This document shows, in pieces, positions 20,709-62,047 of a stretch of DNA of 64,000 nucleotides. Source of the DNA: Sphingomonas paeninsulae (GTDB taxonomy: Bacteria; Pseudomonadota; Alphaproteobacteria; Sphingomonadales; Sphingomonadaceae); the NCBI RefSeq assembly GCF_003660165.1, contig NZ_CP032827.1, forward strand, positions 1 through 64,000, given 5' to 3'. Numbering within the stretch: the stretch's first letter is position 1; each line of letters starts with the position of its first letter. The translations under genes and the position numbers were made by a program. The notes below the pieces were generated by a model. The model searched no databases. It was not told where the DNA came from and worked only from the letters and a program-made list of their open reading frames with translations.

Positions 20709-20727
20709 TGCGTAGATTCCGACCCTC
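20709..20727 (+). promoter_or_regulatory. FixJ-type box, site 10
   Basis: Core TGCGTAGATTCCG followed by ACCCTC, 121 nt before the P-type ATPase gene. It probably serves the ATPase-ppk2-tal-rpiA run. Confidence 0.82.
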
Positions 20728-26732: not shown

Positions 26733-26751
26733 TGAGTAGAATCCGAAACTG
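26733..26751 (+). promoter_or_regulatory. FixJ-type box, site 11 (one mismatch)
   Basis: Core TGAGTAGAATCCG, one mismatch (A for T), followed by AAACTG. It lies only 39 nt before the CheB fragment, the shortest spacing in the window, consistent with loss of the gene's 5' part. Confidence 0.72.
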
Positions 26752-26784: not shown

Positions 26785-27087
26785 ATGTTTTTGGAAGAAA
26801 GGCAGAACAGCAAGGGGAGTGAAGGTCTGTGCGGCATCCGCGCGATCGGCGGCATAACGATCGCTCAATTGCCCGCGTCGACCGAACATTCCTATATGTC
26901 CGTTAGCGCGATTGCGAGCGGTTGCGTGGATTACATTCTCACACCCGAGCAGATCGCCGCACAGCTCGTCAGAATCATTGGTTCGCTGGACCAACTCGCT
27001 GATTATACCAAATCCCTGAGGGGGTTAGGCACACCGCGTCTGACCTCAGAGGCGGTGACCGCCACCCTTAGTCTCGCGTGGGAATGA
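26785..27087 (+). pseudogene. CheB-type methylesterase, C-terminal remnant
   Basis: 100 residues. The segment GSEGLCGIRAIGGITIAQLPASTEH, followed by AIASGCVDYILTPEQIAAQLVRI, matches the C-terminal third of the CheB methylesterase catalytic domain (the region around the catalytic Asp and the AxxxGxVDxVL block). The upstream two thirds, with the catalytic Ser and His, are absent, and the tail after LVRI is not typical. CheB domains often occur fused to CheR and sensor kinases. Here an internal deletion seems to have joined the regulatory region (site 11) to the fragment. A functional product is unlikely. Confidence 0.62.
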
Positions 27088-27103
27088 GTATTTTCCGATC
27101 CTT
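27085..27103 (+). promoter_or_regulatory. FixJ-type box, orphan variant site 12
   Basis: Core TGAGTATTTTCCG, one mismatch, followed by ATCCTT. It points straight into the truncated 3' edge of the IS21 remnant, starting at about 27102. No gene follows in the plus direction, so its former target seems to have been lost. Confidence 0.55.
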
Positions 27104-28436: not shown

Positions 28437-28489
28437 GTCGATCACTCCTGTATCCTCCGACCCAAGAGCCGGAGAAACGATCAAAACAT

Positions 28490-28510
28490 GGGTCAATTCT
28501 CAGTGGAAAT
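28490..28510. repeat. IS21 inner terminal repeat
   Basis: A 21-nt segment beginning GGGTCAATTCTCA. It matches the outer repeat at 28524-28544 at about 17 of 21 positions, in the same direction. Multiple subterminal repeats of this kind are typical of IS21 ends. Confidence 0.65.
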
Positions 28511-30043: not shown

Positions 30044-30062
30044 CAGGGTCGGAAACTACCCA
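30044..30062 (-). promoter_or_regulatory. FixJ-type box, site 13
   Basis: Minus-strand core TGGGTAGTTTCCG followed by ACCCTG, a full match. It points to the alcohol dehydrogenase starting at 29983. Confidence 0.84.
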
Positions 30063-32795: not shown

Positions 32796-32814
32796 CAGGG
32801 TCGGAATTCACTTA
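32796..32814 (-). promoter_or_regulatory. FixJ-type box, weak variant site 14
   Basis: Minus strand reads TAAGTGAATTCCG followed by ACCCTG. Three or so core mismatches, but CCGANNCTG is fully kept and the spacing to nnr (78 nt) is typical. Divergent partner of site 15. Confidence 0.5.
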
Positions 32815-32969: not shown

Positions 32970-32988
32970 TGAGTAGATTCCGACGCTG
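32970..32988 (+). promoter_or_regulatory. FixJ-type box, site 15
   Basis: Core TGAGTAGATTCCG followed by ACGCTG, a perfect match. It points to the alcohol dehydrogenase (start 33103) and probably the run of genes to 41.5 kb. Confidence 0.86.
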
Positions 32989-33102: not shown

Positions 33103-34140
33103 ATGAAGGCATTCGTTTACGGCGGCGTGGGCAAAAAGAGCCTTGAAGACCGGCCGAAGCCCGAGATCGCCGACCCGGGCGATGCGATCGTCAAAATGGT
33201 CAAGACGACGATTTGCGGGACCGACCTGCACATCCTGAAAGGCGATGTCGCGACTTGCGCGCCCGGGCGTATACTCGGTCATGAAGGCGTGGGTACGATC
33301 GAGACCGTCGGTGCCGGCGTCACCACATTCAAAACTGGCGACCGCGTCCTCATCTCTTGCATCTCATCGTGCGGAAAATGCGAATATTGCCGCCGCGGCA
33401 TGTATTCGCACTGCACGACCGGGGGCTGGATCCTCGGCAATTCGATCGACGGCACCCAGGCCGAATATGTTCGCATCCCTCACGCCGAGACGAGCCTCTA
33501 TCCGATCCCCAAAGATGCGGATGAGGACGCGATGGTCATGCTGAGCGACATCCTGCCGACCGGGTTCGAATGCGGTGTGCTCAACGGCAAGGTTTCGCCG
33601 GGATCGACAGTAGCGATCGTCGGCGCAGGACCGATCGGGCTGGCGGCTTTGCTCACCGCACAGCTCTATTCGCCCGCCGAGATCATCATGATCGATCTGG
33701 ACGACAATCGCCTGGCGATGGCGATGAAGTTTGGCGCAACCCGCATGATCAACAGCGCGGACGGCAAGGCATCAGACAAAGTGAAAGCCCTGACCGACGG
33801 AAAGGGCGTCGACACCGCGATCGAGGCGGTCGGTATCCCGACGACTTTCGAGCTGTGCGAGCAGATCATCGCTCCCGGCGGGATCATCGCCAATATCGGC
33901 GTTCACGGCCAGAAGGTCGACCTGCATCTGGAGACGCTCTGGTCGCAGAACATCGCGATCACCACGCGGCTGGTCGACGCCGTCACCACCCCGATGCTGT
34001 TGAAGACCGTGCAATCGGGGAAGATCGACCCGACCCGGTTGATCACGCATCACTTCAAGCTCGACCAGATCCTCGACGCTTACGACACGTTCGGGCGCGC
34101 CGCGGAAACCAAGGCGCTGAAGGTCATCATCGACGCCTGA
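33103..34140 (+). CDS. Zinc-dependent alcohol dehydrogenase
   Basis: 345 residues. Catalytic zinc ligands in TTICGTDLHILKG and ILGHEGVGTIETVG; structural zinc Cys in SSCGKCEYCRRGMYSHC. Rossmann motif VAIVGAGPIGLAALLTAQL followed by IMIDLDDNRLAMA (Asp ending the second strand suggests NAD preference). Family members act on ethanol, butanol or related alcohols. First gene of a long plus-strand run with aldehyde dehydrogenase, transhydrogenase, porin, another alcohol dehydrogenase and OYE. The frame is intact. Confidence 0.9.
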   Translation: MKAFVYGGVGKKSLEDRPKPEIADPGDAIVKMVKTTICGTDLHILKGDVATCAPGRILGHEGVGTIETVGAGVTTFKTGDRVLISCISSCGKCEYCRRGMYSHCTTGGWILGNSIDGTQAEYVRIPHAETSLYPIPKDADEDAMVMLSDILPTGFECGVLNGKVSPGSTVAIVGAGPIGLAALLTAQLYSPAEIIMIDLDDNRLAMAMKFGATRMINSADGKASDKVKALTDGKGVDTAIEAVGIPTTFELCEQIIAPGGIIANIGVHGQKVDLHLETLWSQNIAITTRLVDAVTTPMLLKTVQSGKIDPTRLITHHFKLDQILDAYDTFGRAAETKALKVIIDA

Positions 34141-34197
34141 CGACACGGCCGGCGGCCTGCCCTTTCCCTTCGTCATTCTAACAGAAAGCTGAATTTC

Positions 34198-35580
34198 ATG
34201 ACCTATCAAAGCCTCAATCCGTTCAATGGCAAACTCGTTGAATCCTTCGCCGATCTCGGCGATCCGCAACTCGAGACCAGGATCGCGACGGCCGACGCCT
34301 GCTTCCAGACGTGGCGTCACACATCCTACGCCGACCGCGCCAAGATCATCGCAAAGGCGGGCGAGATCCTCCACGCGCGGGCCGACGCGTTCGCGCGCAT
34401 CATGACGACCGAGATGGGCAAGCGCATTGGCGAGGCGCGGGGCGAAGTGGAATTCAGCGCGCGGATCATGGCCTATTACGCCAAGAACGCCGAACGCTTC
34501 CTGGCGCCGGTCAAGCTCGATCCGACCAATGGCGAAGCGCATATGGAGAGCAGCCCGATCGGGGTGATCTTCTGCGTCGAGCCGTGGAATTTCCCATATT
34601 ATCAACTCGCCCGCGTCGCCGGGCCGCATCTGATGGCGGGCAACACGATGTTGGTGAAACATGCCGGCATCGTGCCGCAGTGCGCGATCGCGTTCGAGAA
34701 GCTGCTGATCGAAGCGGGCGCGCCGATTGGTCTGTATACCAATCTTTTGATCAGCCATGACCAGTCCGACGATGTCGTGGACGATCCCCGCGTCAAGGGC
34801 GTCGCGCTGACCGGCAGCGTCGCCGCGGGCCGCAGTGTCGCCTCGCGCGCTGGCAAAAACCTCAAAGTCTCGTCGATGGAATTGGGTGGCAGCGACGCCT
34901 TCATCGTGCTTGAGGATGCCGATCTCGACCTGACCGTTCCCTGGGCGGTGTGGGGCCGGATGTACAATACCGGCCAGACCTGCTGCGCGGCCAAACGCTT
35001 CATCGTGGTCGAAAGCATGGCGGACGCGTTCCTCGAGAAATTCAAGAGTGCGCTCGGCGCGCTTGAGGCGGGCGATCCGATGGATGAAAAGACCACGCTC
35101 GGACCGCTTTCGACCGAACAGGCGCTGGTCGATCTGCTCAAGCAGGTAGATGGCGCGGTTGCACACGGCGCCAAGGTCGCGCTCGGTGGCAAACGCGTCG
35201 ATCGTGCGGGATCGTTCATGATGCCGACGATCCTGACGGACATTGCGAAGGACAACCCCGCCTTTCGCGAGGAATTCTTCGGACCGGTCGCTCTCTTCTT
35301 CCGCGTGAAGGACGAGGACGAAGCCATTGCAATCGCCAATGACTCCGATTTCGGCCTCGGCGGCTCGGTGTGGACCAGGGATGTGGCGCGCGGAAGGCGC
35401 ATCGCCAGCAAAGTCGAGACGGGCATGATGTTCATCAACAACATCGACTGGACCGATGCTGAGCTGCCCTTCGGCGGGATCAAGGATTCAGGCTACGGCC
35501 GTGAACTCGGCGACATGGGTATCCAGCAGTTCGTCAACAAAAAGCTGGTCCGCATCCACAACGCAAAGGCCCCCGCCTGA
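34198..35580 (+). CDS. NAD(P)-dependent aldehyde dehydrogenase (succinate-semialdehyde dehydrogenase type)
   Basis: 460 residues. Catalytic features: PWNFPYYQLAR (cofactor loop with Asn), ALTGSVAAGR, SMELGGSDAFIVLEDADLD (general base Glu) and NTGQTCCAAKRFIV (catalytic Cys, one of an adjacent Cys pair). Length and sequence are of the short Sad/YneI-type group that oxidises succinate semialdehyde and other aldehydes. If the Gad-like pathway at 47-51 kb makes GABA, this enzyme could act downstream, but no GABA transaminase is visible. 57 nt after the alcohol dehydrogenase. Confidence 0.9.
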   Translation: MTYQSLNPFNGKLVESFADLGDPQLETRIATADACFQTWRHTSYADRAKIIAKAGEILHARADAFARIMTTEMGKRIGEARGEVEFSARIMAYYAKNAERFLAPVKLDPTNGEAHMESSPIGVIFCVEPWNFPYYQLARVAGPHLMAGNTMLVKHAGIVPQCAIAFEKLLIEAGAPIGLYTNLLISHDQSDDVVDDPRVKGVALTGSVAAGRSVASRAGKNLKVSSMELGGSDAFIVLEDADLDLTVPWAVWGRMYNTGQTCCAAKRFIVVESMADAFLEKFKSALGALEAGDPMDEKTTLGPLSTEQALVDLLKQVDGAVAHGAKVALGGKRVDRAGSFMMPTILTDIAKDNPAFREEFFGPVALFFRVKDEDEAIAIANDSDFGLGGSVWTRDVARGRRIASKVETGMMFINNIDWTDAELPFGGIKDSGYGRELGDMGIQQFVNKKLVRIHNAKAPA

Positions 35581-35593
35581 GTTTTAAAAGCGG

Positions 35594-35615
35594 CGCCCGG
35601 CTCGTCTGCCGGGCG
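35594..35615 (+). terminator. GC-rich hairpin between aldehyde dehydrogenase and pntA
   Basis: Perfect 8-bp stem CGCCCGGC/GCCGGGCG with a 6-nt loop, 14 nt after the stop codon. There is no T run after it, so it may be a weak attenuator or an mRNA-stabilising stem rather than a full intrinsic terminator. Confidence 0.35.
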
Positions 35616-35645
35616 TCTCGATGCCGACACCGAGCGGAGCACATC

Positions 35646-36791
35646 ATGTACGTTAATATCGCCGTTCTCAAAGAAACCCAACCACACGAGTGCCGGGTAG
35701 CGCTGGTTCCGTCCGTCGTACCCAAGCTGACGAAGCTGGGGGCAAGGCTTCATATGCATACGGGCGCAGCCGACGCGATCAGAGTGTCCGATTCGGCCTA
35801 CGGCGAAGTGGTCTTCATGGATGATCGCACCGCTCTGGTCGCCAATGCCGATGTGGTGCTGTGCGTCCAGCCACCGGCGCTCGACGTCGTTGATGCAATG
35901 AAGCCCGGCGCAATCTTGCTGTGCTTCGTCTATGCGGCGAACGAGCCCGAACTGGTGAAACGCCTGCTCGCAAGGCACATCACATGCTTCGCGATGGAGC
36001 GCATCCCGCGTATTTCGCGCGCTCAGGCGATGGACGCGCTGTCGAGCCAGTCAGCGCTGGCGGGCTATTATGCCGTCGCGCTCGGCATGACGCATATGGA
36101 CCGCGTCCTGCCCAAGATCACATCGGCGGCAGGCGTCCTCGGACCGGCCAAGGTGCTTGTGATGGGGCTCGGTGTCGCCGGGCTGGAGGCGATCGCCACC
36201 GCGCAGCGGTTGGGCGCGGTGGTCGAGGGCTATGACGTACGGCCCGAAACGCGCGAACAAGCACTGTCGCTCGGCGCGACCTTTGTCGACACAGGCGTCG
36301 ATGCCACCGGCAAGGGAGGGTACGCGCGAGAGCTCACGGCCGAGGAAAAGACCAAGGTCGATGCGGCGCTGACCAAGCATATCCAGGCGTCTGACCTGAT
36401 CATCACAACTGCCGCGATCCCCGGCAAGGCCTCGCCCAAGCTGATCAGCAGGCCCCAAGTGGCGGGCATGAAACCGGGCGCGGTGATCGTTGATCTCTCG
36501 GCAGAGGGGGGCGGCAATTGCGAAGCGACCCAGCCCGGCGAGACGATCCGCGTCGGCGGGGTTACGATCGTCGCGCCGCTCAACGTGCCGTCGAACCTCG
36601 GAGCGGATGCCAGCGAGCTTTACGCCAAGAATCAGTTCAACCTGCTCGCGCTGATGCTGCACGACAATATCGTGACGATCGACTGGACCGACGAGGTGCT
36701 GGCGAAGACCGCGCTGACGCACGACGGCAAGCTCTGCGATGCCGTCAAGACGCCCGAGCACTCCGCCACACCGACCGCGAAAGCGGCGTGA
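35646..36791 (+). CDS. pntAA: NAD(P) transhydrogenase subunit alpha, part 1 (soluble NAD-binding domain)
   Basis: 381 residues, domain I of the proton-translocating transhydrogenase that links NADH and NADPH pools to the proton gradient. AlaDH/PNT N-terminal region (VAVLKET-like start NIAVLKETQPHECRVAL), MERIPRISRAQAMDALSSQ, the dinucleotide fold VLVMGLGVAGLEAIATA, and VIVDLSAEGGGNCE. The three-gene arrangement (split alpha) is usual in alphaproteobacteria. Followed 19 nt later by part 2. The frame is intact. Confidence 0.94.
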   Translation: MYVNIAVLKETQPHECRVALVPSVVPKLTKLGARLHMHTGAADAIRVSDSAYGEVVFMDDRTALVANADVVLCVQPPALDVVDAMKPGAILLCFVYAANEPELVKRLLARHITCFAMERIPRISRAQAMDALSSQSALAGYYAVALGMTHMDRVLPKITSAAGVLGPAKVLVMGLGVAGLEAIATAQRLGAVVEGYDVRPETREQALSLGATFVDTGVDATGKGGYARELTAEEKTKVDAALTKHIQASDLIITTAAIPGKASPKLISRPQVAGMKPGAVIVDLSAEGGGNCEATQPGETIRVGGVTIVAPLNVPSNLGADASELYAKNQFNLLALMLHDNIVTIDWTDEVLAKTALTHDGKLCDAVKTPEHSATPTAKAA

Positions 36792-36810
36792 CCGCGATGG
36801 GACCCCAAGC

Positions 36811-37158
36811 ATGAACGCCGAACTCGCCATGACGGGCTTCATCGCCCTCTATATTTTCATGCTCGCCGGCTTTGCCGGCTGGGTGATCATCGGCAACGTG
36901 CCGGCGATCCTGCATACGCCGCTAATGTCGGGGTCGAACTTCGTCCACGGCATCGTCGTGGTCGGCGGCCTGTTCGCACTTCTCAACGCCAGCACGCCGC
37001 TCGAACAGGGCATCGGCTTTTTCGCGGTGCTGCTCGGCGCGGGCAATGCGGCCGGCGGTTATGCCGTGACCGACCGGATGCTCGCAATGTTCAAGTCGAG
37101 CGGCGACGACACCAAGCACAAGACCGCCACGGTCCATCACCTCAAAAAGAAGGGGTGA
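36811..37158 (+). CDS. pntAB: NAD(P) transhydrogenase subunit alpha, part 2 (membrane)
   Basis: 115 residues forming the membrane part of the split alpha subunit: three or four hydrophobic spans (IALYIFMLAGFAGWVIIG, FVHGIVVVGGLFALLNAS, IGFFAVLLGAGNAAGGYAV) with the conserved TPLMSGSNFVHGI segment, then a short basic tail ending HHLKKKG. Start ATG at 36811. It lies between pntAA and pntB with 4 nt to the latter. Confidence 0.94.
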   Translation: MNAELAMTGFIALYIFMLAGFAGWVIIGNVPAILHTPLMSGSNFVHGIVVVGGLFALLNASTPLEQGIGFFAVLLGAGNAAGGYAVTDRMLAMFKSSGDDTKHKTATVHHLKKKG

Positions 37159-37162
37159 GGAC

Positions 37163-38614
37163 ATGCTCGCCATCATCTCCCAAATCGCGATAGGCGCGAC
37201 CGATCTAGTCGCGGCCTTCCTGTTCCTCTTCGGGCTCAAGCGCATGTCGTCGCCGGCAACTGCCGCCTCGGGCATCCGCGTCGCAGGCATCGGCATGGTC
37301 GCCGCCGTGCTGGTCAGCTTCCTTTATGTGTTCACGATCGACGCTGCGGCGCGACCGCATCTGATCGTTAACCTCGTACTCGCCATCGTCGCACTCGCGA
37401 TCGGTGGTGGCTTTGCATGGATCGTCGGCCGAAAGGTCGCGATGACCGCCATGCCTCAGATGGTGGCGATCTATAACGGCATGGGCGGCGGGGCGGCGGG
37501 CGGCATCGCCGCGGTCGAACTGTTCGGGAACCGCGCGACCGGGACCACGCATCTCGTCGTGACATTGCTCGGCGCGCTGATCGGCGCGGTTTCGATGTCG
37601 GGGTCGGTGATCGCCTGGGCCAAGCTTCAGGGTGTGCTCGGCGCTCCACTGCGGTTCGGCGGCCAGCGCGCCCTGAACGGCGTCGTGTTCGTTGCCGCGC
37701 TCGCGGTCGGCGGATGGATGGTGTTCACCGCATTCAGCGGCGTGCCACCAGTGCTGCCCGTTGCTACCTGGATCCTGATCTTCTTCGGCCTCGCTTTGCT
37801 ATTCGGCGTCCTGATGACGCTGCCGATCGGCGGCGCGGACATGCCGGTCGTGATCTCGATCTACAACGCCTTCACGGGGCTTGCTGTTGGGTTCGAAGGC
37901 TATGTGCTTGGCAATCCCGCGCTGATGATCGCCGGCATGGTGGTCGGTGCGGCGGGCCTGCTCCTCACGCTGCTGATGGCGAAGGCGATGAACCGATCGG
38001 TCGCCAACGTGCTCTTCTCAAACTTCGGCGAGGTTCCCGCCAAGGGGAAGCCGGGCGCCGTCGCCGGCACGGAGCGCGAAACGCAGGCGTCCGACGCGGG
38101 CATCCAGATGCGCTATGCGAGCAGCGTCATCATCGTGCCGGGCTATGGTCTGGCGGCCGCGCAGGGGCAGCAGAAGCTCTATGAATTCGTCAAGCTGCTG
38201 CTTGCCGCCAAGGTGCAGGTCCGCTTCGCGATCCATCCCGTTGCCGGGAGAATGCCGGGACAGATGGACGTGCTGCTGGCTGAGGCCGGCGTGCCCTATG
38301 ACCTCATCTTCCAGCTCGACGACATCAACGCCGATTTCGCCACCACTGACGTCGTGCTGGTGATCGGAGCCAACGACGTCGTCAATCCGGCGGCGCGCAC
38401 CGATAAATCCTCGCCGATCTTCGGTATGCCGATCCTCAACGCGGACATGGCCAAGCAGGTTTACGTCATCAAACGCGGACAGGGCAAAGGCTATTCCGGT
38501 ATCGTCAACGCGCTGTTCTACAAACCTAATTGCGACATGGTGTACGGCGACGCGCAGGCGGTGCTGATCAAGATGATCGAAGCCGTACGCGGCCTCGGGG
38601 CGGCGGCGGCATGA
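37163..38614 (+). CDS. pntB: NAD(P) transhydrogenase subunit beta
   Basis: 483 residues. N-terminal half with about eight membrane spans (KRMSSPATAASGIRVAGIGM, then PQMVAIYNGMGGGAAGGIAAVE, VISIYNAFTGLAVGFEGYVL), C-terminal NADP-binding domain III (VIIVPGYGLAAAQGQQKLYE, RFAIHPVAGRMPGQMDVLLAEA, VLVIGANDVVNPAAR, IKRGQGKGYSGIVNALFYKPN). Its stop overlaps the next start (ATGA). Together the three genes would move reductant between NADH and NADPH when respiratory flux changes. Confidence 0.95.
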   Translation: MLAIISQIAIGATDLVAAFLFLFGLKRMSSPATAASGIRVAGIGMVAAVLVSFLYVFTIDAAARPHLIVNLVLAIVALAIGGGFAWIVGRKVAMTAMPQMVAIYNGMGGGAAGGIAAVELFGNRATGTTHLVVTLLGALIGAVSMSGSVIAWAKLQGVLGAPLRFGGQRALNGVVFVAALAVGGWMVFTAFSGVPPVLPVATWILIFFGLALLFGVLMTLPIGGADMPVVISIYNAFTGLAVGFEGYVLGNPALMIAGMVVGAAGLLLTLLMAKAMNRSVANVLFSNFGEVPAKGKPGAVAGTERETQASDAGIQMRYASSVIIVPGYGLAAAQGQQKLYEFVKLLLAAKVQVRFAIHPVAGRMPGQMDVLLAEAGVPYDLIFQLDDINADFATTDVVLVIGANDVVNPAARTDKSSPIFGMPILNADMAKQVYVIKRGQGKGYSGIVNALFYKPNCDMVYGDAQAVLIKMIEAVRGLGAAAA

Positions 38615-41634: not shown

Positions 41635-41653
41635 TGAGTAGATTCCGGCCCTG
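41635..41653 (+). promoter_or_regulatory. FixJ-type box, site 16
   Basis: Core TGAGTAGATTCCG followed by GCCCTG, 70 nt before the second PRC-barrel gene. Confidence 0.84.
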
Positions 41654-41717: not shown

Positions 41718-42491
41718 ATGTTGAGACATACTTCGAAGATCAGTGGTTACACCGTTGGCGCAAGTGACGGTCAAATTGGCTCGGTCACCGACTTACTGTT
41801 TGACGAGGTTTCCTGGCGGGTTCGCTGGCTGGTCATCGACACCGGAACCTTCCTGTCGGGCCGTAAGGTGCTGCTTCCGCCGTCGGCACTCAGCCATGTC
41901 AATCACATCGGCCATCAACTGGCAGTCAACTTGACCAAGCAGCAGGTGAAGGACAGTCCCGACGTCCAGTCCGACGAGCCGGTCTCGGGTCAGATGGAAA
42001 CCGATCTCTACGATTATTATGGCTGGAGCCCTTATTGGTACACTGGCTTCTACATGGGCGGCTCCGGCTGCGCTGGAGGTCCTTTCGCCCCCAACATCCC
42101 TGGATCTCGTTCAAATGAGCGCGGCACAGGAGATGCAGATCGCGCGCGCGGCGATAGGCACCTGCGCAGCGTCAAAGAGGTGACTGGCTACCACATCCAT
42201 GCACGTGATGGTGAGATCGGGCACGTTGCCGACTTTCTGCTCGAGGACGGGGACTGGAGCGTCCGCTACTTGGTCGTGGACACGCGCAACTGGTGGCCCG
42301 GAAAGAAGGTTCTGATCTCGCCGCGCTCCATTCAATCGACGAGCTGGTCGGACCGAATGGTGAACCTCGATGTTGACCGCGAGACGGTCAAACACAGTCC
42401 CGCGTATGACGGATCAGAGGCCATCGACCGCGCTTACGAGTATCAGTACCACGGCTATTATGATGGCCGACGGGTCCCTGAGCCGGTCTGA
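41718..42491 (+). CDS. Two-domain PRC-barrel protein, paralogue
   Basis: 257 residues, same architecture as the gene at 19808: first PRC barrel (SGYTVGASDGQIGSVTDLLFDE, WRVRWLVIDTGTFLSGRKVLL), central TDLYDYYGWSPYWYTG followed by a Gly-rich linker, second barrel (VTGYHIHARDGEIGHVADFLLED, WSVRYLVVDTRNWWPGKKVLI). Both copies keep the YYGWSP motif in the linker, which may be a binding element. No signal peptide. Function unknown; its own box upstream suggests low-oxygen induction. Confidence 0.88.
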   Translation: MLRHTSKISGYTVGASDGQIGSVTDLLFDEVSWRVRWLVIDTGTFLSGRKVLLPPSALSHVNHIGHQLAVNLTKQQVKDSPDVQSDEPVSGQMETDLYDYYGWSPYWYTGFYMGGSGCAGGPFAPNIPGSRSNERGTGDADRARGDRHLRSVKEVTGYHIHARDGEIGHVADFLLEDGDWSVRYLVVDTRNWWPGKKVLISPRSIQSTSWSDRMVNLDVDRETVKHSPAYDGSEAIDRAYEYQYHGYYDGRRVPEPV

Positions 42492-44120: not shown

Positions 44121-45692
44121 CTATCGGTGGAGCGTCCGGATCGCATCGACGATCACCTTGGGACTGTGCAGCCCCTTATAGACCGGCGGCGGCGCCTTAT
44201 CGAGCTTGAGCAGCGTGTAGACCGCGGTCATCGCGCAGCGGATCGAATATTCCACCGTGAAGACCACGTCGTCGGGCTGCTCGGCATATTGGCCGAGAAA
44301 GGCTAGGTTGGTCGATCCGATCGGCACCACTAGAGGCCGGTCGCCCATTTTGCGCTTCATGAACTGGCTGGTGATGTAGGGCATCGCGCAGGGGATGCAG
44401 TTTGAGGCAGCGAGGACCGCCGCGCTGTCGGGCGCGCTGAAACGCAGATGGCCCAGCACTTCCTCCAGGATCTCCGCGCCCGTGCAGTCGACCAGCTTCT
44501 TCTTGACGTAGTCGCCGGGGCGATCGTGGAACAGGCCGTAACCCCACCAAACCGCGATACCTTCGGGTTGATCGGGGAAGAACGGCTGATGATAGATCGA
44601 TAAAGTCAGCAGCCAGGCCGATTGCTTGAAGGTGATCAGCCCACCTGTCCCGGCCGCGCTGCCGCTGAAGCGCTCCATCAACTGCAGGAACAACGGGTCT
44701 TTCACCGTGACGGTAAAGGAGATCCACGAACTCTCTTGAACATTCCCGTTAAAGGCAGCCGGGTTACCGAGGGCAGGGCGACCTTGCGCGAGCTTTTCCC
44801 ACAGGTTCCACGCGCCCGAATGGTTGGTCGCATCGAGGCCGGGGGCCTCGGTCATCGACCCGAATGCCTTGTCCGCGGTCATCGACCCGTTGGTGACGAA
44901 CACCAGGTCGCTAGGCGCGACCGGGATCGCGGCCGGGCCATCAGCGGTCAGCGTCGATATGCTGGTGACGGTCAGCGCGTCGTTGCCCGCGGCGAACCCC
45001 AGATCCTCGACACGGACGCCGTGCCGGAACTGGACACCCCGGTCCCTTAACCAGGTGACGATCGGCACGATTATGCTGTCATACTGATTGTAGACAGTGC
45101 GATAGATGTCGTGCTGAACGTCGATTGTCGAGAAATGGTGGACGAACCGACGCAAATAGCGGCGGAACTCGATCGCGCTGTGCCACGGTTCGAACGCGAA
45201 CAGCGTGCACCATTCCATCCAGAAATTGGTCTCGAAGAAATGCGGCTCGAAGCAGTCGGTGATGCGCTTGTCGTCGAGCAGGCTTTCAGGCTCGCCGATC
45301 AGCGCGATCAGGTCGATCCGGTCGCGCTCGGTAAATCCCATGGTGTGTGCGTCGGGCACGCTACCGTCCAGATTGACCAGCCTGACCTTGTTATCCCACG
45401 GCCACATCTTCGCGGCCCGGTTCGTTTCTGCGGTCACGGAAATTGTCGGGTCCGTCGCCGAGGGTATGCCGTCGAGCAGATCGAAGGTGCATTGATACAT
45501 CGCCTCGAACATGCGGCTGCCGCTCATGAAATAGCCGTCCTCCGCCGAGCCATGCGCATCGAAGGCGCCCCCGGTCTGGTGGCTTTCCTCGAGGATCGTG
45601 ATGTCCTTGCCCGCAACGTCGCCATCGCGCAGCAGGATGACCGCTCCCGCGAGCGAGGCGATTCCGCTGCCGATGAATGTGTAGCTGCTCAT
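44121..45692 (-). CDS. ohyA: Oleate hydratase
   Basis: 523 residues. FAD-dependent enzyme that adds water to the cis double bond of oleic acid to give 10-hydroxystearate. N-terminal FAD loop IGSGIASLAGAVILLRDG, then LEESHQTGGAFDAHGS, GYFMSGSRMFEAMYQCTFDLL and the C-terminal block NCIPCAMPYITSQFMKRK, PIGSTNLAFLGQYAEQPDDVVFTVEYSIR. Complete, uninterrupted frame. Membrane-associated in characterised relatives. Preceded by a box at 45750, suggesting a role in lipid change or fatty-acid detoxification under low oxygen. A C-terminal remnant of a second copy lies at 61928. Confidence 0.95.
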   Translation of the reverse strand: MSSYTFIGSGIASLAGAVILLRDGDVAGKDITILEESHQTGGAFDAHGSAEDGYFMSGSRMFEAMYQCTFDLLDGIPSATDPTISVTAETNRAAKMWPWDNKVRLVNLDGSVPDAHTMGFTERDRIDLIALIGEPESLLDDKRITDCFEPHFFETNFWMEWCTLFAFEPWHSAIEFRRYLRRFVHHFSTIDVQHDIYRTVYNQYDSIIVPIVTWLRDRGVQFRHGVRVEDLGFAAGNDALTVTSISTLTADGPAAIPVAPSDLVFVTNGSMTADKAFGSMTEAPGLDATNHSGAWNLWEKLAQGRPALGNPAAFNGNVQESSWISFTVTVKDPLFLQLMERFSGSAAGTGGLITFKQSAWLLTLSIYHQPFFPDQPEGIAVWWGYGLFHDRPGDYVKKKLVDCTGAEILEEVLGHLRFSAPDSAAVLAASNCIPCAMPYITSQFMKRKMGDRPLVVPIGSTNLAFLGQYAEQPDDVVFTVEYSIRCAMTAVYTLLKLDKAPPPVYKGLHSPKVIVDAIRTLHR

Positions 45693-45749: not shown

Positions 45750-45768
45750 CAGCGTCGGAAATTACTCA
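45750..45768 (-). promoter_or_regulatory. FixJ-type box, site 17 (one mismatch)
   Basis: Minus-strand core TGAGTAATTTCCG, one mismatch, followed by ACGCTG. It points to ohyA, 64 nt from the start. Confidence 0.75.
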
Positions 45769-50892: not shown

Positions 50893-50911
50893 TAGCCTCG
50901 GAATCTACTCA
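50893..50911 (-). promoter_or_regulatory. FixJ-type box, site 18
   Basis: Minus-strand core TGAGTAGATTCCG followed by AGGCTA. It points to the gad-like operon, 72 nt from its start. Confidence 0.83.
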
Positions 50912-51600: not shown

Positions 51601-51759
51601 CGTGAAGCATCCCCCAGGCTGTTCGAATGACGCGCAGCTCGCAAGCGGCGCCCCCGATTGCGGCTCCAAGGGCCTCGCCACCTGAGCCCAAAGTTTCCCG
51701 TCGACCCTTAATCCATGCGCTTGCGGGCCGCGCAGTCGGAATGTCGATATTTGTCGTGG

Positions 51760-52070
51760 TTACCCGACAGGCGTGGCGAATGCGGTTACGAACGCCAGGA
51801 TTAGCGCGATCAGGCAAAAGAGCGCTTTGTTTCCGAGCTTTTTCGAGACTGCGATGCCGACGAGGCACTGCACAGCGCGATGGCAAAGCTGCAGATGAGG
51901 AGGTAAGTCGTGCGCTTGGAAAGCGTGCGCCGAGAAACCTCGATGAGACTTCCAGATCCACTGATCGCATCAGCGACCGCAGCGCTGAACTGGCTGAACA
52001 CCGCTATCAGCACCAGCGGATAGGTAAGCCAGATCCCAACAATTCCCGCGAGTTGCATCAGCGCATTGTC
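51760..52070 (-). pseudogene. Membrane protein, C-terminal remnant
   Basis: Minus-strand reading gives IWLTYPLVLIAVFSQFSAAVADAI, then SLIEVSRRTLSKRTTYLLICSFAIALC, and after one or two frame changes AVQCLVGIAVSKKLGNKALF with a stop at 51760. These are hydrophobic spans of a multi-pass protein whose family I recall only vaguely. The 5' part is replaced by the transposase gene reading the other way from about 52060. Non-functional remnant. Confidence 0.5.
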
Positions 52071-53159
52071 CGCGACCTGTCGGAGCAGAAAATGAAATTG
52101 CTGTGCCGCCAAATGGGGCTGCTGGCGGGCGCAAGCATCGCCATTGACGGCAGCAAGTTCAAGGCCGTGAACAACCGGGATCGCAACTTCACCAAAGCCA
52201 AACTGGAGCGCCGGCGTCAACAGATCGAGGAAAGCGTTGCTCGCTATCTGGCCCAGTTGGATACCGCCGACCGGCAGGAGCCGACGGATGTGCTGGTGGC
52301 CAAGGGGGACAGGCTCAAGGAGAAGATCACGAGGCTCGAACAAGAGATGGAGCGCCTCGATGGACTGGAAGCGCAGATGCTGGCGTCACCAGACCGCCAA
52401 ATATCGCTGACTGATCCTGACGCGCGATCGATGTCGAGCAGCGGACGCGGAACGGGCGTTGTGGGCTATAATGTGCAGGCTGCTGTCGATACCGAGCATC
52501 ACCTCATCGTCACACATGAGGTCACGAACGTCGGCACCGACCGAGCAAAGTTGAGCGGCATGGCGAAAAAGGCGAAAGCAGTTCTGGAGGCAGAACGGCT
52601 CGATGTGGTGGCCGACCGCGGCTACTTCTCCGGCGAAGAGATACTGGCCAGCGAACAGGCCGGCATCACTGTGACCCTGCCGAAACCGATGACCTCTCGT
52701 GCCAAGGCGGAGGGACGGTTCGGAAAAGCGGACTTCGTCTACCTGCCCGAGCGAGACGTTTATCGCTGTCCGGCCGTCAACATGCTGACCTATCGGTACA
52801 CCAATGTGGAAGCGGGTCTGACAGTGAGCCGATATCGGACGAGTGCTTGCCCGAAATGTCCGATCAAGGCTCAATGCACACCGGCAAAGGAACGGCGCGT
52901 CACCCGATGGAAGCACAAGGCCGTCCTCGAAACCATGCAGAAACGCCTCGATGCCAATCCAGATGCCATGCGCATACGCTGCCAGACGGTGGAGCATCCC
53001 TTTGGCACTTTCAAAGCTCGCATGGGCTCCACCCACTTTCTAACAAAGACAAAGCCGCGTGTTTCAACCGAAATGGCGCTCCATGTTTTAGCCTATAACC
53101 TGACGCGGGTGCCCAACATCATGGGTAGCAAGGCAATCGTGAAAGCAGTCGCAAGCTGA
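52056..53159 (+). mobile_element. IS1182-family transposase, 5'-truncated
   Basis: The last 365 or so residues of an IS1182-type transposase: LLAGASIAIDGSKFKAVNNRDRNFT (first catalytic Asp region), a long coiled coil (RRRQQIEESVARYLAQLD), GVVGYNVQAAVDTEHHLIVTHEVT, LDVVADRGYFSGEEI (second Asp), a Cys cluster CPKCPIKAQC, and HPFGTFKARMG (Glu region). The N-terminal 80-100 residues are absent; upstream of about 52060 the DNA belongs to the membrane-protein remnant on the other strand. The open frame reaching back to 51627 is an accident. I could not identify terminal inverted repeats. Probably inactive. Confidence 0.8.
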
Positions 53160-53411: not shown

Positions 53412-54950
<1,539 letters not shown>

Positions 54951-55394
54951 TTACGCCGTATAATTCAAAAGCAATTCCGCCACATCGGCGGCTGGCCGAC
55001 CGGCATAGTCCTTGTCGATTTCGGCCACGAGCCGCTTTTTCAGGTCCGCACTATATCGCGGGCGGATGAAGCCCAGCACATGCGGCGCGGCCACGATGAT
55101 AAAATCGAAATCGGATTGTAGCGCCAGTGCGTTCAACCTGTCGATTGCGGCCCTCGCGAAATCGTCCTCATCGGCTTGGTGGAAATCAGTCGTTTCGTGC
55201 GCGCTCCGCCCATGGCCCACCGAACTGAAACTCCGACCTGGCTTATCGGTGCCGATGTCGGCTGTCTGCGCCGCGTGCTGGACGCTGTGCTCCACCAGTT
55301 CGAGATCGATGGCAAAGTCGCGTCCGCGATTGCGGAACAGCGACAGTTTTGCACCATCGATGACAAGGATCATGGCACCATGAAAAACGAGCAT
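54951..55394 (-). CDS. Host attachment protein family (PF10116-like), small stress-type
   Basis: 147 residues from ATG 55394, chosen because GGGAG sits about 8 nt upstream. MILVIDGAKLSLFRNRGRD begins a fold similar to the baeRF/eRF1-like domains annotated as proteins required for attachment to host cells. Further blocks: DEDDFARAAIDRLNALAL, FIIVAAPHVLGFIRPRYS and ADLKKRLVAEIDKDYAGRP. The name comes from an Agrobacterium gene; the molecular function is not known. First gene after the box at 55449, followed by the CoA transferase. Confidence 0.78.
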   Translation of the reverse strand: MLVFHGAMILVIDGAKLSLFRNRGRDFAIDLELVEHSVQHAAQTADIGTDKPGRSFSSVGHGRSAHETTDFHQADEDDFARAAIDRLNALALQSDFDFIIVAAPHVLGFIRPRYSADLKKRLVAEIDKDYAGRPAADVAELLLNYTA

Positions 55395-55448
55395 CTTCTC
55401 AACTCCCTTTGGATGAGCACAGTTTGCCATCCCGCGGCGCTTCCTTAC

Positions 55449-55467
55449 CAGCCTCGGAGATTACGCA
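55449..55467 (-). promoter_or_regulatory. FixJ-type box, site 19 (two mismatches)
   Basis: Minus-strand core TGCGTAATCTCCG followed by AGGCTG. It overlaps the 3' end of the receiver-domain gene and points to the host-attachment-family gene, 61 nt from its start. Confidence 0.66.
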
Positions 55468-55843
55468 GTTGGCGGGCAGATCGCCTCACTCATCCCAGCG
55501 ATGGCGGCAACCAGTGGCCGGTCACCGATCGCACGGTTGAATATCTTGTCACCGTGTCGGTCTGCCTTCCGCACCAATGCGTCCTCCGGATCGGTGTCAT
55601 CCAAAAGAATAGCCCTGCCGTGCCACCCGGTTGCCCTCATCTCGCGCAGGAACGCCACACCGTCGACATCGTGCATTCGGACGTCGAGGACGATACAGAA
55701 ATAATCCCGCGAAACCGGATCGGCGAGCAGCGCCGCGCAGGTGGAATACGACCGGACATCGTAGAGTTCTGAGCGCAACATGATCTGGCGCGCGCGTCGT
55801 ATCGCCGGGTCGCCATCGACAAGGGAAACACGGATTTCAACAT
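55461..55843 (-). CDS. Degenerate single receiver-domain protein, possible FixT-like antagonist
   Basis: About 127 residues if a missing base near 55825 is restored, giving the start MLKSV and then SLVDGDPAIRRARQIMLRSELYDVRSY. A phosphoacceptor-like Asp is present in FCIVLDVRMHDVDGVAFLREM. The acidic pair reads DGD, the switch Thr position reads LLDDTD, and the invariant Lys is lost (IFNRAIGDRPL), so normal phosphotransfer is doubtful. No output domain. It directly follows fixJ in the operon. In Caulobacter and Sinorhizobium a small protein, FixT, inhibits FixL; in Caulobacter it is a receiver-fold protein. The same role here is inference. Confidence 0.66.
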
Positions 55844-55925
55844 TCTGGGTGATGGTACGATGCCTCTGTGGACCTCGACCGTTGCACCTGTTCGCCTCCG
55901 GCGTCTGTACGTAGAAAGCGAGGGG

Positions 55926-56555
55926 TTACAACGGGCTAGGCTCATCCAGTCCTGCCGCGAACGCGATCCGCAATACGTCGGAAAGGCTCCTCGCATGAAG
56001 CTTTTCCATCAGATTGGCGCGGTGAACTTCGACCGTGCGTGTCGCTATGCTCAGGTCGAACGCGATCAGCTTGTTCGGACGCCCCGCAACCATTCCGTTC
56101 AGGACGTCGTGCTCGCGGGCAGTCAGCGCAGCGATCCGCACGACCGCGTCCTCTTTGGCAAGTTTATCCTGAATGCCCCGCTTTGCATGGCGCAGGCCAT
56201 CTTCGATCGCCGCCAGCAGGACCACGCGCTCGAACGGCTTTTCCAGAAACTCGATGGCCCCCGCCTTGATTGCGCGCACCGCCAGCGTCACGTCGCCGTG
56301 CCCGGTCAGCATGATGACGGGCAAGACGATGCCCAGCGCATTGAGCCGCGCCTGAACCTCCAGCCCGTCCAGTCCCGCCATCCGAACGTCGAGCAGGACG
56401 CAGCCCTGACTCTCGCGCGTGACGGCCTTCAGAAACTCGTCGCCGGACACAAACGCGGTAACGTCATAACCGGCTTTCCGCAGCAGGAACCCGACCGACT
56501 GCCTGATCGCCTCGTCATCATCGACGACATAAACCGCGTTGAGCGTCTCAGGCAT
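55926..56555 (-). CDS. fixJ: FixJ-like response regulator
   Basis: 209 residues. Receiver domain with acidic trio VVDDDEA (Asp12-14), phosphoacceptor Asp56 in CVLLDVRMAGLDG, Thr84 in IMLTGHGD and Lys106 in FLEKPF. LuxR/FixJ-type HTH from about 142: LTAREHDVLNGMVAGRPNKLIAFDL with recognition helix TRTVEVHRANLMEKL. The order and linker match FixJ-class regulators. Start ATG 56555 overlaps the kinase stop by eight bases (ATGCCTGA). The DNA element repeated through the window contains GTAGWTTCC, which resembles known FixJ targets, so this is the most likely regulator. Autoregulation is suggested by the box at 59668. Confidence 0.92.
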   Translation of the reverse strand: MPETLNAVYVVDDDEAIRQSVGFLLRKAGYDVTAFVSGDEFLKAVTRESQGCVLLDVRMAGLDGLEVQARLNALGIVLPVIMLTGHGDVTLAVRAIKAGAIEFLEKPFERVVLLAAIEDGLRHAKRGIQDKLAKEDAVVRIAALTAREHDVLNGMVAGRPNKLIAFDLSIATRTVEVHRANLMEKLHARSLSDVLRIAFAAGLDEPSPL

Positions 56556-58101
56556 TAAAAACATCCGCCAGCGGGACAGTAAAATTGAACGCTGTCCCGC
56601 CACCCTCCACCGCATCGGCCCAGATGCGCCCGCCATGCGCCTCGACAATCGTTCGGCAGATCGACAAACCCAGCCCCATGCCATCTTCCTTCGTGGTTGC
56701 GAACGCCTCGAAAAGACGTGCCCGAACGCCAGCCTCGATCCCTCCGCCGGTGTCGATAACCGCGATCCTCACCCAGCCCGGCTCGTCCCGAGCTGTAGCG
56801 ATCCGCAGTTCCTTACACACCGTCGCCTGCATCGAGTGAAGCGCGTTGCGGATAAGGTTGACGATCACCTGCTGGATCTGAATCCGGTCCACCCGAACGT
56901 GACCTAGCCCAGACGCAATGTCGGTCGCCACCATTACCCCGGCTTCATGCGCGCCCAACAGGCCCAGCGTCGTCGCTTCCCTCACCAGCACATCCAGCGG
57001 CTCCAGCTCGAAACCGGTTTCACCGCCATCGACAAACGCCCGCAACCGACGAACGATCTGCCCCGCGCGCAGCGATTGCGCCGCCGCCAGTTCGATGGCC
57101 TCCGCAATCCCCCCTAGCGCGCCATCGGGTGCGTCACCAATCATCTCGCGTGCGGTTTCCAGATAGTTTACAATCGCGGTCAGCGGCTGGTTGATCTCAT
57201 GCGCCAGTGTCGAGGCCATCGTCCCCATCGCGCTGACCCGCGAGACATGGACGAGTTCGGACTGTAATTCCTGCATCCGCCGCTCGCTCTCGACCCGCGC
57301 CGTGACGTCGCGAATAAATCCGGTGAAAATCCGCTCCCCCGCGATCGAAACCTCACCCACCGCCAGTTCGATAGGGAACCTCTCGCCATTCCGCCGCATC
57401 GCGGTCACGCTGCGAATACTGCCGATGATGTGCCGTTCACCGGTTTTCAGATAGGTCGACAAATGGCCGTCATGGGCCGAACGGTCGCCAGATGGCATCA
57501 ACATGCTGACGTTGCGCCCGACGACTTCGTTTTCGGCAAACCCAAAGAGTTGTTCGGCGGCGGCGCTGAACGAAGCGACCGTCCCCCGCTCGTCCATCAC
57601 GATCATCGCATCAGGAACGGTCGCCAGAATCGAATGCAAATGATGCTCACGGCGGACGATCGCCGCCTCGGCCGCCTTCTGATCGGTAATGTCGCGAATG
57701 ACCTTGCCGAAGCCCCTCAGCGCACCATTCTCATCGCGAAGCGCGGTGATCGTCACGCTCGCCAGAAACTCCGACCCGTCCTTGCGAACCCGCCAGCTTT
57801 CTTCCTCGATACGCCCCAGATCATTTGCCAGCGCAAGGTCGCGTACTGGCTTGCCCGCAGCCACATCGTCGGGCGGATAGAAGACCGCGACATCCTGCCC
57901 GATGATCTCCGCTTCGCTCCACCCCTTGATGCGTTCGGCGCCACGGTTCCACAGCGTCACCCGGCCCGCCGGATCGAGCATATAGATCGCGTAATTAGTC
58001 GCGCCGTCGATCAGCAGCCCGAGTTCTTCGGCCATCATCGCCTGCCGCCGCGCCGCTATTTCGGCCCCGCTATGGCTTTGCTCGGGGGGCGTTGAGGTCA
58101 A
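56548..58101 (-). CDS. fixL: FixL-like PAS-PAS histidine kinase, probable haem oxygen sensor
   Basis: 517 residues, no membrane span, so cytosolic. PAS1 about 28-142, PAS2 about 150-272, HisKA with phosphoacceptor His301 in STLAHEINQPLTAI, then HATPase with N box (VIVNLIRNAL), DTGGGI and GMGLGLS. PAS2 carries GERHIIGSIR: His224 and Arg230 have the same spacing as the haem-ligand His and propionate-binding Arg of rhizobial FixL (HIIGxxR, from memory). The linker LQELQSELVHVSRVSAMG is also nearly that of FixL. Expected: oxygen binding turns the kinase off. Overlaps fixJ. Complete frame. Confidence 0.9.
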   Translation of the reverse strand: MTSTPPEQSHSGAEIAARRQAMMAEELGLLIDGATNYAIYMLDPAGRVTLWNRGAERIKGWSEAEIIGQDVAVFYPPDDVAAGKPVRDLALANDLGRIEEESWRVRKDGSEFLASVTITALRDENGALRGFGKVIRDITDQKAAEAAIVRREHHLHSILATVPDAMIVMDERGTVASFSAAAEQLFGFAENEVVGRNVSMLMPSGDRSAHDGHLSTYLKTGERHIIGSIRSVTAMRRNGERFPIELAVGEVSIAGERIFTGFIRDVTARVESERRMQELQSELVHVSRVSAMGTMASTLAHEINQPLTAIVNYLETAREMIGDAPDGALGGIAEAIELAAAQSLRAGQIVRRLRAFVDGGETGFELEPLDVLVREATTLGLLGAHEAGVMVATDIASGLGHVRVDRIQIQQVIVNLIRNALHSMQATVCKELRIATARDEPGWVRIAVIDTGGGIEAGVRARLFEAFATTKEDGMGLGLSICRTIVEAHGGRIWADAVEGGGTAFNFTVPLADVFNA

Positions 58102-58110
58102 GACACCAGC

Positions 58111-58770
58111 CTAGCCCTTAAGCTTTGGATTAGCGAGGTTAACCTGTCGGTGCGCACTGATCAGGGCCAGAACGGCAGCGAGCCCTGCTCCCAGCCACAG
58201 CGCCGACATCCCCATCGCATGATCGGCGCTGGCTCCCAGAACCGCGCCACTCAACAGGCCGCACCACAGCAGCAGATAGGAACGCCAGCCGACCGGGTCG
58301 CCGCCGCGAATGGCGATGGCGAGGCACCGCCCCAGATTGACGATGGTGCCGGTCATGTACGTCAGCCCGATCGGCGTTTCCCCCGCCTGACCGACAACGG
58401 CATTTTCCGCGCCCATCCCAACCGCAAGGCAGGCGATGGCAACGGACTCGTCTCCAAACGACGCGAGCACCGCCGATGCCACCAGGAGCACCGACACCAT
58501 CGACAGCACCACAACGCGCCGAAATCGACCCGCCCAGTCGCCCGCAAGTGATGCGCCCGTCACGCCCATGACAAAGCAACCGATCAGGCCGAATGCGATC
58601 GCGGCGGCATGGCTCTGCCCGGAAAGACCAACACCCAGCCGCGTAGTATTGCCGCTCATGAACGACACGAAGAACCCGCCCGTCTCGATATAGGCGACGG
58701 CATCCACATAGCCTGCCAGCGCGGCAAGGGCGATCGCCAGCGCCTGAACCGCGCGACTATGCCGGATCAT
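58111..58770 (-). CDS. DUF1275 (YoaK) family membrane protein
   Basis: 219 residues with six or so membrane spans. The family signature GYVDAVAYIETGGFFVSFMSGNTTRLG is at the N-terminus, and GLTYMTGTIVNLGRCLA follows in the second half. Function unknown in general. It lies between the universal stress gene and fixL, with gaps of 18 and 9 nt, so it is part of the fixLJ operon. Confidence 0.88.
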   Translation of the reverse strand: MIRHSRAVQALAIALAALAGYVDAVAYIETGGFFVSFMSGNTTRLGVGLSGQSHAAAIAFGLIGCFVMGVTGASLAGDWAGRFRRVVVLSMVSVLLVASAVLASFGDESVAIACLAVGMGAENAVVGQAGETPIGLTYMTGTIVNLGRCLAIAIRGGDPVGWRSYLLLWCGLLSGAVLGASADHAMGMSALWLGAGLAAVLALISAHRQVNLANPKLKG

Positions 58771-58788
58771 CGGGGCCGGATCATCGCG

Positions 58789-59619
58789 TCAATGCGACAG
58801 CAGCGCGCAATAACCGGCATGAAGCGTCAGGTCGCGCGTAACCCCGCCGAACACCCACTGACGCAACCGGCTATGTCCATAGGCACCCGCGACCACGACA
58901 TCGGTCCGGTTGTTCTCAAGTGCCTCGTTGAGTTGATAGGCGTCGTCGCCCTGCGTCGTCGGCGTGAAGATCACCTCAGCCACAATCCCGTGCCGGTCGA
59001 GCCATCCGGCCACATCCTTCATCCCAGCCAAGGCGTCATGGCGGTCACGCTCGGGTGCCAGATGCACGATGCTGACATGGCTCGCCGTCTTCAGCAGCGG
59101 CAGCGCATCGGCCACCGCGCGCCTTGCCTCGGGCGTTTCCTTCCACGCAATGGTCATGCGATTTAGCTTCAAACCGGGCGCATCACGCGGCACGATCAAC
59201 ACAGGTCGCCCTGTTTGCAACACGATCTGGGCCGGATTTTCCCTGCGCGCGGTGTCGCTCGGGTCGAACGAAACCGCACTGGTCACCACGAGATCGGCAC
59301 AGCGGGCTTCTCGCGCCACGAAATCCGAAGTCGGCTCGAGCCCAATTGAAGACCGCCATTCGATCTGATTGGGTTTGCCAAAAAACGCCGCCCGGAACTC
59401 GGCTTCCGCCAGTCCCATTTCGCGGCGGATCTCTTTTGTGTCCTCCTCCATCAGCGTCGGCGGCAGAGGAACCTCGCAATACACGATAGGGATCGGCTGA
59501 CAGGCAACCACCCCGACTATTCTCGACCCGAAACGGTCGGCGAGTTCGCTGACGACCGTCAGCAAACCGGTGTTGGTATGCGACAGCTTCAAATGAACCA
59601 TGATCGTCTGATACATCAT
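58789..59619 (-). CDS. Universal stress protein, two-domain UspA type
   Basis: 276 residues. First Usp half: IMVHLKLSHTNTGLLTVVSELADRFGSRIVGVVA; second half: MTIAWKETPEARRAVADALPLL, and the ATP-binding-type end VVAGAYGHSRLRQWVFGGVTRDLTLHAGYCALLSH. Tandem Usp proteins are common in low-oxygen regulons. First gene after the box at 59668 and first of the operon usp-DUF1275-fixL-fixJ-receiver. Confidence 0.9.
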   Translation of the reverse strand: MMYQTIMVHLKLSHTNTGLLTVVSELADRFGSRIVGVVACQPIPIVYCEVPLPPTLMEEDTKEIRREMGLAEAEFRAAFFGKPNQIEWRSSIGLEPTSDFVAREARCADLVVTSAVSFDPSDTARRENPAQIVLQTGRPVLIVPRDAPGLKLNRMTIAWKETPEARRAVADALPLLKTASHVSIVHLAPERDRHDALAGMKDVAGWLDRHGIVAEVIFTPTTQGDDAYQLNEALENNRTDVVVAGAYGHSRLRQWVFGGVTRDLTLHAGYCALLSH

Positions 59620-59667
59620 AATATTGCACCCTTCGCAAAGAGTGTGACGCGACGTCCGGTGCGCAGC

Positions 59668-59686
59668 CAGTATCGGAAACTACGCA
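59668..59686 (-). promoter_or_regulatory. FixJ-type box, site 20
   Basis: Minus-strand core TGCGTAGTTTCCG followed by ATACTG, a perfect match, 55 nt before the stress-protein gene that leads the fixLJ operon. Supports autoregulation. Confidence 0.85.
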
Positions 59687-61460: not shown

Positions 61461-61479
61461 GAGACTCGGAAAATACGCA
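61461..61479 (-). promoter_or_regulatory. FixJ-type box, site 21 (one mismatch)
   Basis: Minus-strand core TGCGTATTTTCCG, one mismatch, followed by AGTCTC. It points to the small gene at 61337 and the GNAT-VIT1 chain. Confidence 0.68.
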
Positions 61480-61901: not shown

Positions 61902-61927
61902 CGTCCTGAAATCCGACTGCGCCGGTC

Positions 61928-62047
61928 CGGAGTGCGATGACGGCGGTCTACACATTGCTCAAACTGAACAAAAAGCCGCCGCCGGTCTACAAGGGCTTGC
62001 ATAATCCGCAGGTTGTTGTGGATGGGATACGGACGATGCACCGATAA
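61928..62047 (+). pseudogene. Oleate hydratase, C-terminal remnant
   Basis: The last 39 codons of an oleate hydratase. AMTAVYTLLKLNKKPPPVYK and the following GLHNPQVVVDGIRTMHR line up with the end of the complete copy at 44121-45692, differing at about seven positions. The rest of the gene is missing. The upstream edge adjoins the membrane-protein gene on the other strand. Confidence 0.85.

Follow-up and report, generated by a model that had tools for sequence, protein, structure and literature searches.

In Sphingomonas paeninsulae, a FixL-FixJ two-component pair is most likely in direct control of a plasmid-borne island for low-oxygen survival. The window, the 64,000-nucleotide stretch analysed here (contig NZ_CP032827.1, positions 1 to 64,000), encodes the pair on its minus strand between 55461 and 59686, in an operon behind a FixJ-type DNA box, and we regard the recurrence of this box as the main finding. 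The boxes stand on the target operons themselves, which argues for direct control, and with about 22 of them on the replicon of fixLJ and no FixK found in the genome the island is probably activated directly. FixJ is the likely user of the boxes, although not a proven or an exclusive one; we infer both its occupancy of them and the direction of regulation.

The box that leads the operon, TGCGTAGTTTCCGATACTG (59668-59686, minus strand), lies 48 bases before the usp ATG and carries nine of the ten bases of GTAGTTTCCC, one of the classes selected by S. meliloti FixJ in systematic evolution of ligands by exponential enrichment (SELEX), the other being GTAMGTAG (PMC4999443). A sequence-only reading of this DNA had already picked out the usp box, which is confirmed here, but left its recurrence unmentioned. 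Exact matches to TGNGTAGTTTCC number eight in the 3.99-Mb genome (G000), and all eight are on the window's replicon (C1; 221,615 bases, 5.5% of the genome): seven in the window and one at 217906, which adjoins the window if the contig is circular. The reversed pattern, used as a control, gives two. The extended pattern TRNGTAGTTTCCGANCCTG has 21 matches with at most two mismatches (19 on C1 and two on C3) and 42 with at most three, against 13 for the reversed control. A matrix built from 18 of these 19 C1 matches (that at 203343 was omitted; 14 of the 18 are in the window) finds 22 window sites of at least 18 bits, 14 of which are its own training sites; 30 Markov simulations gave one site in total and the reversed window none. 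Elsewhere on C1 the matrix finds seven more sites at 203-220 kb and one at 78 kb, and no site at 80-100 kb or 126-142 kb; the remainder of C1 was scanned by pattern only.

Twenty of the 22 window sites lie clear of Pfam-supported genes, where 5000 null draws gave a mean of 5.0 and a maximum of 12. Fourteen have a Pfam-supported start on their own strand at most 250 bases downstream (null mean 2.2, maximum 8), a count that is favoured by gene starts set partly by hand. Of 149 genomes in the family, 40 contain the exact pattern, with the highest counts in G134 (10), G090 (9), the window's genome (8), G029 (4), G003 (3) and G143 (3). Because the reversed control reaches three in five genomes, exact counts of three alone mean little; in G090 that control is zero. 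A k-mer count placed GTAGTTTCCG top in 13 of 13 loci, which is not a blind result, since these loci (two of which, L050 and L110, overlap) were picked for their boxes.

Boxes stand before cytochrome bd oxidase genes (box 17068-17086, plus strand; genes 17222-19648); phosphoketolase and class-I aldolase genes (6203-6221, minus; 6122-2614); SPFH (slipin-type) and acetate kinase genes (13456-13474, minus); P-type ATPase, PPK2, transaldolase and RpiA genes (20709-20727, plus); alcohol dehydrogenase, aldehyde dehydrogenase and PntAB genes (32970-32988, plus; 33103-38614); a zinc alcohol dehydrogenase gene (30044-30062, minus; 28793-29983); an oleate hydratase-type (MCRA) gene (45750-45768, minus; 44121-45692); a mannose-6-phosphate isomerase-type gene (6316-6334, plus); a PMM/HAD-type gene (14381-14399, minus); a glycosyltransferase gene (10686-10704, minus); and two PRC-barrel genes (19683-19701, plus; and 41635-41653, plus, the latter before the gene at 41718-42491). 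Further boxes precede a small open reading frame at 7604-8050 (8160-8178, minus) and, by 65 bases, an ATG at 50827 (50893-50911, minus, 25.7 bits), and another of 27.7 bits is at 1822-1840 (minus). Weaker boxes are found at 61461-61479 (minus, 19.2 bits), 55449-55467 (minus, 19.9 bits, 18 bases before a baeRF/Host_attach gene), 32796-32814 (minus, 21.0 bits), 26733-26751 (plus, 22.0 bits) and 14441-14459 (plus, 21.6 bits). The island also contains transposase genes at 27003-28496 and 51627-53159, and the far end of the first holds a box on the opposite strand (27085-27103, plus). A second SPFH gene (L018:12288-13241) shares 87% identity with that of the window and is located beside a partial acetate kinase match, and a piece of about 40 residues at 61925-62044 (plus) resembles the C terminus of an oleate-hydratase-type protein (90% to L093).

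The sequence-only reading saw no FixK/FNR-type regulator and no cbb3 oxidase in the window, and whole-genome profile searches agree. Neither ccoN (TIGR00780) nor FixQ (PF05545) has a match in the whole genome. PF13545 has eight genome matches, six of them above cut-off, and the single genome match of PF00325 is one of these six; on inspection by eye, all six lack both the E..SR helix and the FNR-type cysteine cluster by which FNR/FixK proteins are recognized (PMC7713065). In the classical cascade FixJ activates a fixK or fnr gene that mediates the effects, the standard arrangement of Rhizobiales and Caulobacterales (PMC4999443, PMC13327599). Here, with no such protein found by either profile or by eye, no ccoN target in the genome, and boxes directly preceding metabolic genes, we consider that arrangement highly improbable, and the earlier suggestion that FixJ may act on metabolic genes directly gains support. 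Among 21 relatives searched for ccoN, 12 have a match. The gene is absent from G090 and G029 (box-type fixLJ), G134 and G143, and present in G003, in G095 and in 10 of 15 genomes with a FixL of 53-59% identity; in G071, G076 and G144 it is no more than about 4 kb from fixL. With three genomes of the box type, the difference is only suggestive.

The operon is as first described, led by usp behind its box: gene order and box position agree, and the coordinates are correct, 59686 being the start of the box and 55461 the end of a small receiver gene. On the minus strand the box is followed by the Usp gene (58789-59619; Pfam Usp, E 4.5e-07), a DUF1275 gene (58111-58770; PF06912, E 4.7e-35), the FixL gene (56548-58101; domain and PDB matches), the FixJ gene (55926 to about 56555; receiver and LuxR-type helix-turn-helix (HTH), NKLIAFDLSIATRTVEVHR; NCBIfam and PDB matches) and, 3' of fixJ, a degenerate single-receiver gene (55461-55781) whose frame stays open further upstream. 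The gaps are short (18 bases between usp and the DUF1275 gene, nine between that gene and fixL), and the start of fixJ overlaps the end of fixL by eight bases. The next operon (53412-55430, minus; domain matches) contains baeRF/Host_attach and succinate/acetyl-CoA transferase genes. Locus L091 has the same order of box, Usp, DUF1275, FixL, FixJ, receiver, box and baeRF. An Rfam search gave no match.

FixL comprises two PAS domains, the second a putative haem domain, followed by HisKA and HATPase domains. The second PAS matches solved FixL PAS domains (1dp6, which we take to be B. japonicum FixL; E 4.5e-39) and the kinase half matches the FixL portion of constructs in the PDB (4gcz, E 1e-75). 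The HIIGxxR PAS segment and FixL linker by which the kinase was originally recognized both hold up, with HIIGSIR at residues 224-230 (window 57432-57412) and the linker, QELQSELVHVSR, aligning with PDB FixL chains. The protein keeps H210 (the haem histidine equivalent), H224 and R230 of HIIGSIR, and the phospho-acceptor H301; we assume the haem roles of the first three from B. japonicum FixL. H210 and R230 also align with the solved FixL chain 8js5, and conservation among 53 aligned FixL proteins is high (H210 in 49, R230 in 51, H301 in all 53). Relatives without the haem histidine equivalent (L122, L132, L137 and L142) have no boxes nearby. The rhizobial FixL equivalog of NCBIfam scores 491 bits, below its cut-off of 850 yet higher than any other model, so we file the protein as a FixL-type kinase and not as the rhizobial equivalog. 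FixJ likewise scores 236 bits against its NCBIfam equivalog, again the top-scoring model yet below the cut-off (255), and divergence of the clade is perhaps the cause in both cases. Haem and oxygen binding by FixL, and phosphotransfer, are predicted from these residues and matches.

FixJ had been credited with all phospho-receiver residues and a LuxR-type HTH. It does have D12/D13, D56, T84 and K106 (hand-counted on the translation) and a GerE domain (E 3e-17), is paired with fixL, and has as its top PDB match 5xso, Response regulator FixJ (E 2e-55). Sites of the GTAGTTTCC type are present and associated with the window's type of FixJ, and their recognition by FixJ is predicted. The small receiver beside the pair keeps its aspartate and has lost the active-site threonine and lysine. 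Such a degenerate receiver is conserved beside box-type fixLJ, and many of the counterparts at loci of a sister FixJ clade resemble complete receivers. In Caulobacter the receiver protein FixT inhibits FixL (PMC7078487), which makes a FixT-like role plausible for the window's protein; like FixT, it is a single receiver-type protein encoded beside FixLJ, and the likeness is one of position.

Relatives link the box to the type of FixJ. The scan of named genomes covered 67 loci, and classification was confined to those with a FixJ match and a FixL of at least 45% identity across 300 residues or more (53 rows, including the window's own). Within the stretch examined, at least one box is present at 26 of the 30 loci whose FixJ helix reads NKL and at none of the 14 that read NKT or NRT. 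Eight loci with other letters were kept outside this comparison: L115, L117, L119 and L135 have a box, and L118, L122, L132 and L133 have none, L122 and L132 being also without the haem histidine. Locus L120 has a box and no FixJ on its 3-kb contig. Across all rows the reversed loci gave three matches, and Markov sequence yielded almost none. Named Sphingomonas relatives have their boxes at most 10 kb from fixLJ, and a same-strand box stands at most 150 bases before the Usp match in 18 of the 36 loci listed.

Gene content alone is a poor guide to the box. The conjugative-type plasmid of Sphingomonas panacis (L173) has an island of similar metabolic and stress genes with fixLJ, a sister-type FixJ (NKT), and no box of at least 14 bits in 32.9 kb. 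A k-mer count in this sister clade pointed to TACGTAGCGA as a candidate box, which resembles the SELEX class GTAMGTAG. The general pattern TACGTAG[CGT]G was rejected, with 15 matches against 15 reversed. In seven of 24 sister-clade loci (L051, L054, L055, L056, L057, L060 and L173) the position of TACGTAGCGA, between fixJ and the small-receiver gene, is suggestive.

The surroundings of the boxes would suit an activator site. When window sites are aligned on the box (19 of 22; those at 14441, 26733 and 32796 were omitted), the most informative column outside it is +42, with A in 11 of 19. The same A occurs in 34 of 49 sites of relatives (80 before sites at least 70% alike were merged; binomial p about 1e-13 at 0.2), in 21 of the 31 from G134 and in 16 of a further 21, two of which are in L110 DNA of the first set. 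Taken as the second base of a -10 hexamer, this A would set the box at about -52 to -34, an activator position that overlaps the S. meliloti FixJ footprints quoted in PMC4999443 (-69 to -44 and -57 to -31). A fixed distance to a -10-like A would also fit an extended -35 element, so that the box might belong to a promoter recognized by an alternative sigma factor, or else be the site of an unrelated regulator. We find this improbable in view of the match to a published FixJ SELEX class (PMC4999443), the association of the box with the FixJ helix type among named relatives, and the TAAGTA and TAGGTA variants of G134, which resemble the S. meliloti fixK-promoter site TAAGTAATTTCCCTTA (PMC4999443). 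An EcfG-type promoter was set aside because the sense strand of the box is without GGAAC.

Several observations weigh against FixJ as the controller of the island. The Fisher probability for the helix comparison (2.7e-8) overstates the association, because the relatives are not independent and many are strains of one Sphingomonas group, and four NKL loci (L141, L102, L116 and the 4.3-kb L103) have no box in the stretch examined. G003 (FixJ helix NKA) and G143 (NKT) do have boxes, located away from their fixLJ: in G003 another FixJ-like gene lies between two of them. At the promoter, the T expected at +46 of the -10 hexamer is unenriched in relatives (11 of 49). In FixL itself, T216 replaces an arginine of other FixL chains such as the solved 8js5. 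The island genes for phosphoketolase (4980-5035), CydA (17653-17683) and P-type ATPase (22093-22126) each appear split by one frame break, as does DnaK (L018, about 14081-14099); these breaks, judged against relatives or the family profile, may be sequencing errors or decay.

The same replicon also encodes a possible rival user of the boxes, which the sequence-only reading missed. This is a 1454-residue hybrid (C1:203432-207796, L018:1817-6181) with the architecture CheB-CheR-PAS-HisKA-HATPase-REC-REC-LuxR, whose tail is 40% identical to FixJ and which may share the boxes. The boxes could be mainly the hybrid's, with FixLJ as just one more island gene or a second input to them. One case is Polymorphobacter megasporae (G134), whose plasmid p29362-2 (L159-L164) has in 120 kb 31 boxes scoring 16 bits or more, together with two hybrids (L161 and L163), and shares with the window cyd, P-type ATPase, PPK2, phosphoketolase, aldolase, transaldolase, RpiA, PntAB, aldehyde dehydrogenase, MCRA and other genes, some of them twice. 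No close FixL was found in this genome (best E 2.4e-18, the level of other PAS kinases), so the boxes do not require FixLJ. A hybrid tail also lies about 4 kb from a box in G095 and beside a box in G143, the hybrid HTHs are nearly alike (mostly SKNIAADL.ISQRTVENHR), and in the window's genome the hybrid is on the same arc of the replicon. The sites themselves do not tell the two regulators apart: their second base gives TA in 17 of 31 G134 sites and TG in 21 of 22 window sites, a difference we rejected as a mark of the regulator because sites in G003 and G095 are also mostly TG.

Control mainly by the hybrid is nevertheless unlikely. G090, a 120-contig draft (99% complete) of the same genus, has nine exact boxes and a FixJ 77% identical to the window's, and besides FixJ no match among those listed spans receiver and HTH. 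In addition, the boxes of named Sphingomonas track the FixJ helix type close to fixLJ, and the usp-fixLJ operon itself has a box. FixJ-type proteins of two kinds, both present in the window's genome, probably use the same operator.

Direct control by FixJ would work as follows. By analogy with the family, the second PAS of FixL would hold haem; departure of oxygen from the haem would activate the kinase, and FixJ would be phosphorylated. Phosphorylated FixJ would then bind TGNGTAGWTTCCGANNCTG beside sigma70-type promoters and activate the operons behind some twenty boxes. Its targets would include its own usp-DUF1275-fixLJ operon, cytochrome bd oxidase, phosphoketolase, acetate kinase, alcohol and aldehyde dehydrogenases, transhydrogenase, PPK2, P-type ATPase and others, so that low oxygen would turn on fermentation, bd respiration, polyphosphate and stress genes.

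The DosR system of Mycobacterium tuberculosis is a haem-sensor two-component system in which a NarL/FixJ-type regulator directly drives many stress and metabolic promoters; its sensor domains, phylum and DNA site differ from those of FixLJ. The window's system would work alike without being a member of that regulon. A second comparison is the low-oxygen-induced lxa cluster of Burkholderia cenocepacia, 50 genes including six universal stress proteins and metabolic genes, which has itself been compared with the DosR regulon (PMC6127331). The window's island resembles lxa in its universal stress and metabolic genes, but the regulator suggested for lxa is the CRP-family FixK homologue BCAM0049 (PMC6127331), whereas the island has FixJ-type boxes on the operons themselves. 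A Burkholderia stagnalis stretch (L172) contains no box at 14 bits; being unannotated and matched by an acetyl-CoA hydrolase gene only, it may not be lxa. With the FixL-FixJ systems of rhizobia and Caulobacter the window's pair shares the haem-PAS kinase, the LuxR-type regulator, the signature residues and an adjacent small receiver, as with FixT, and its box falls in the GTAGTTTCC class reported for FixJ of S. meliloti (PMC4999443). According to the same paper, four genes are preceded by a candidate FixJ site in Rhizobiales, and in Caulobacterales fixK alone is so consistently; its FixLJ section mentions orthologues from no other order. The window has 22 boxes in 64 kb, and neither fixK nor cbb3 was found in the genome. 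We found nothing on this island in the openly licensed literature.

We tentatively propose, as a generalization that may or may not hold, that Sphingomonadales possess a plasmid-borne low-oxygen island with 20 to 35 FixJ operators, in which FixJ acts as direct master without FixK, the hybrid uses the operators in some lineages, a sister FixJ clade may use TACGTAG-type sites, and a change in the FixJ helix went with a switch of operator and a large direct regulon. Textbook accounts of FixLJ give the regulator very few direct targets and have it reach the others through FixK, whereas here FixJ appears to govern a whole regulon on a plasmid-sized replicon. The system thereby lends itself to testing how a response regulator can acquire dozens of targets, how changes in its helix and its operator go together, and how survival at low oxygen travels between bacteria as a package.

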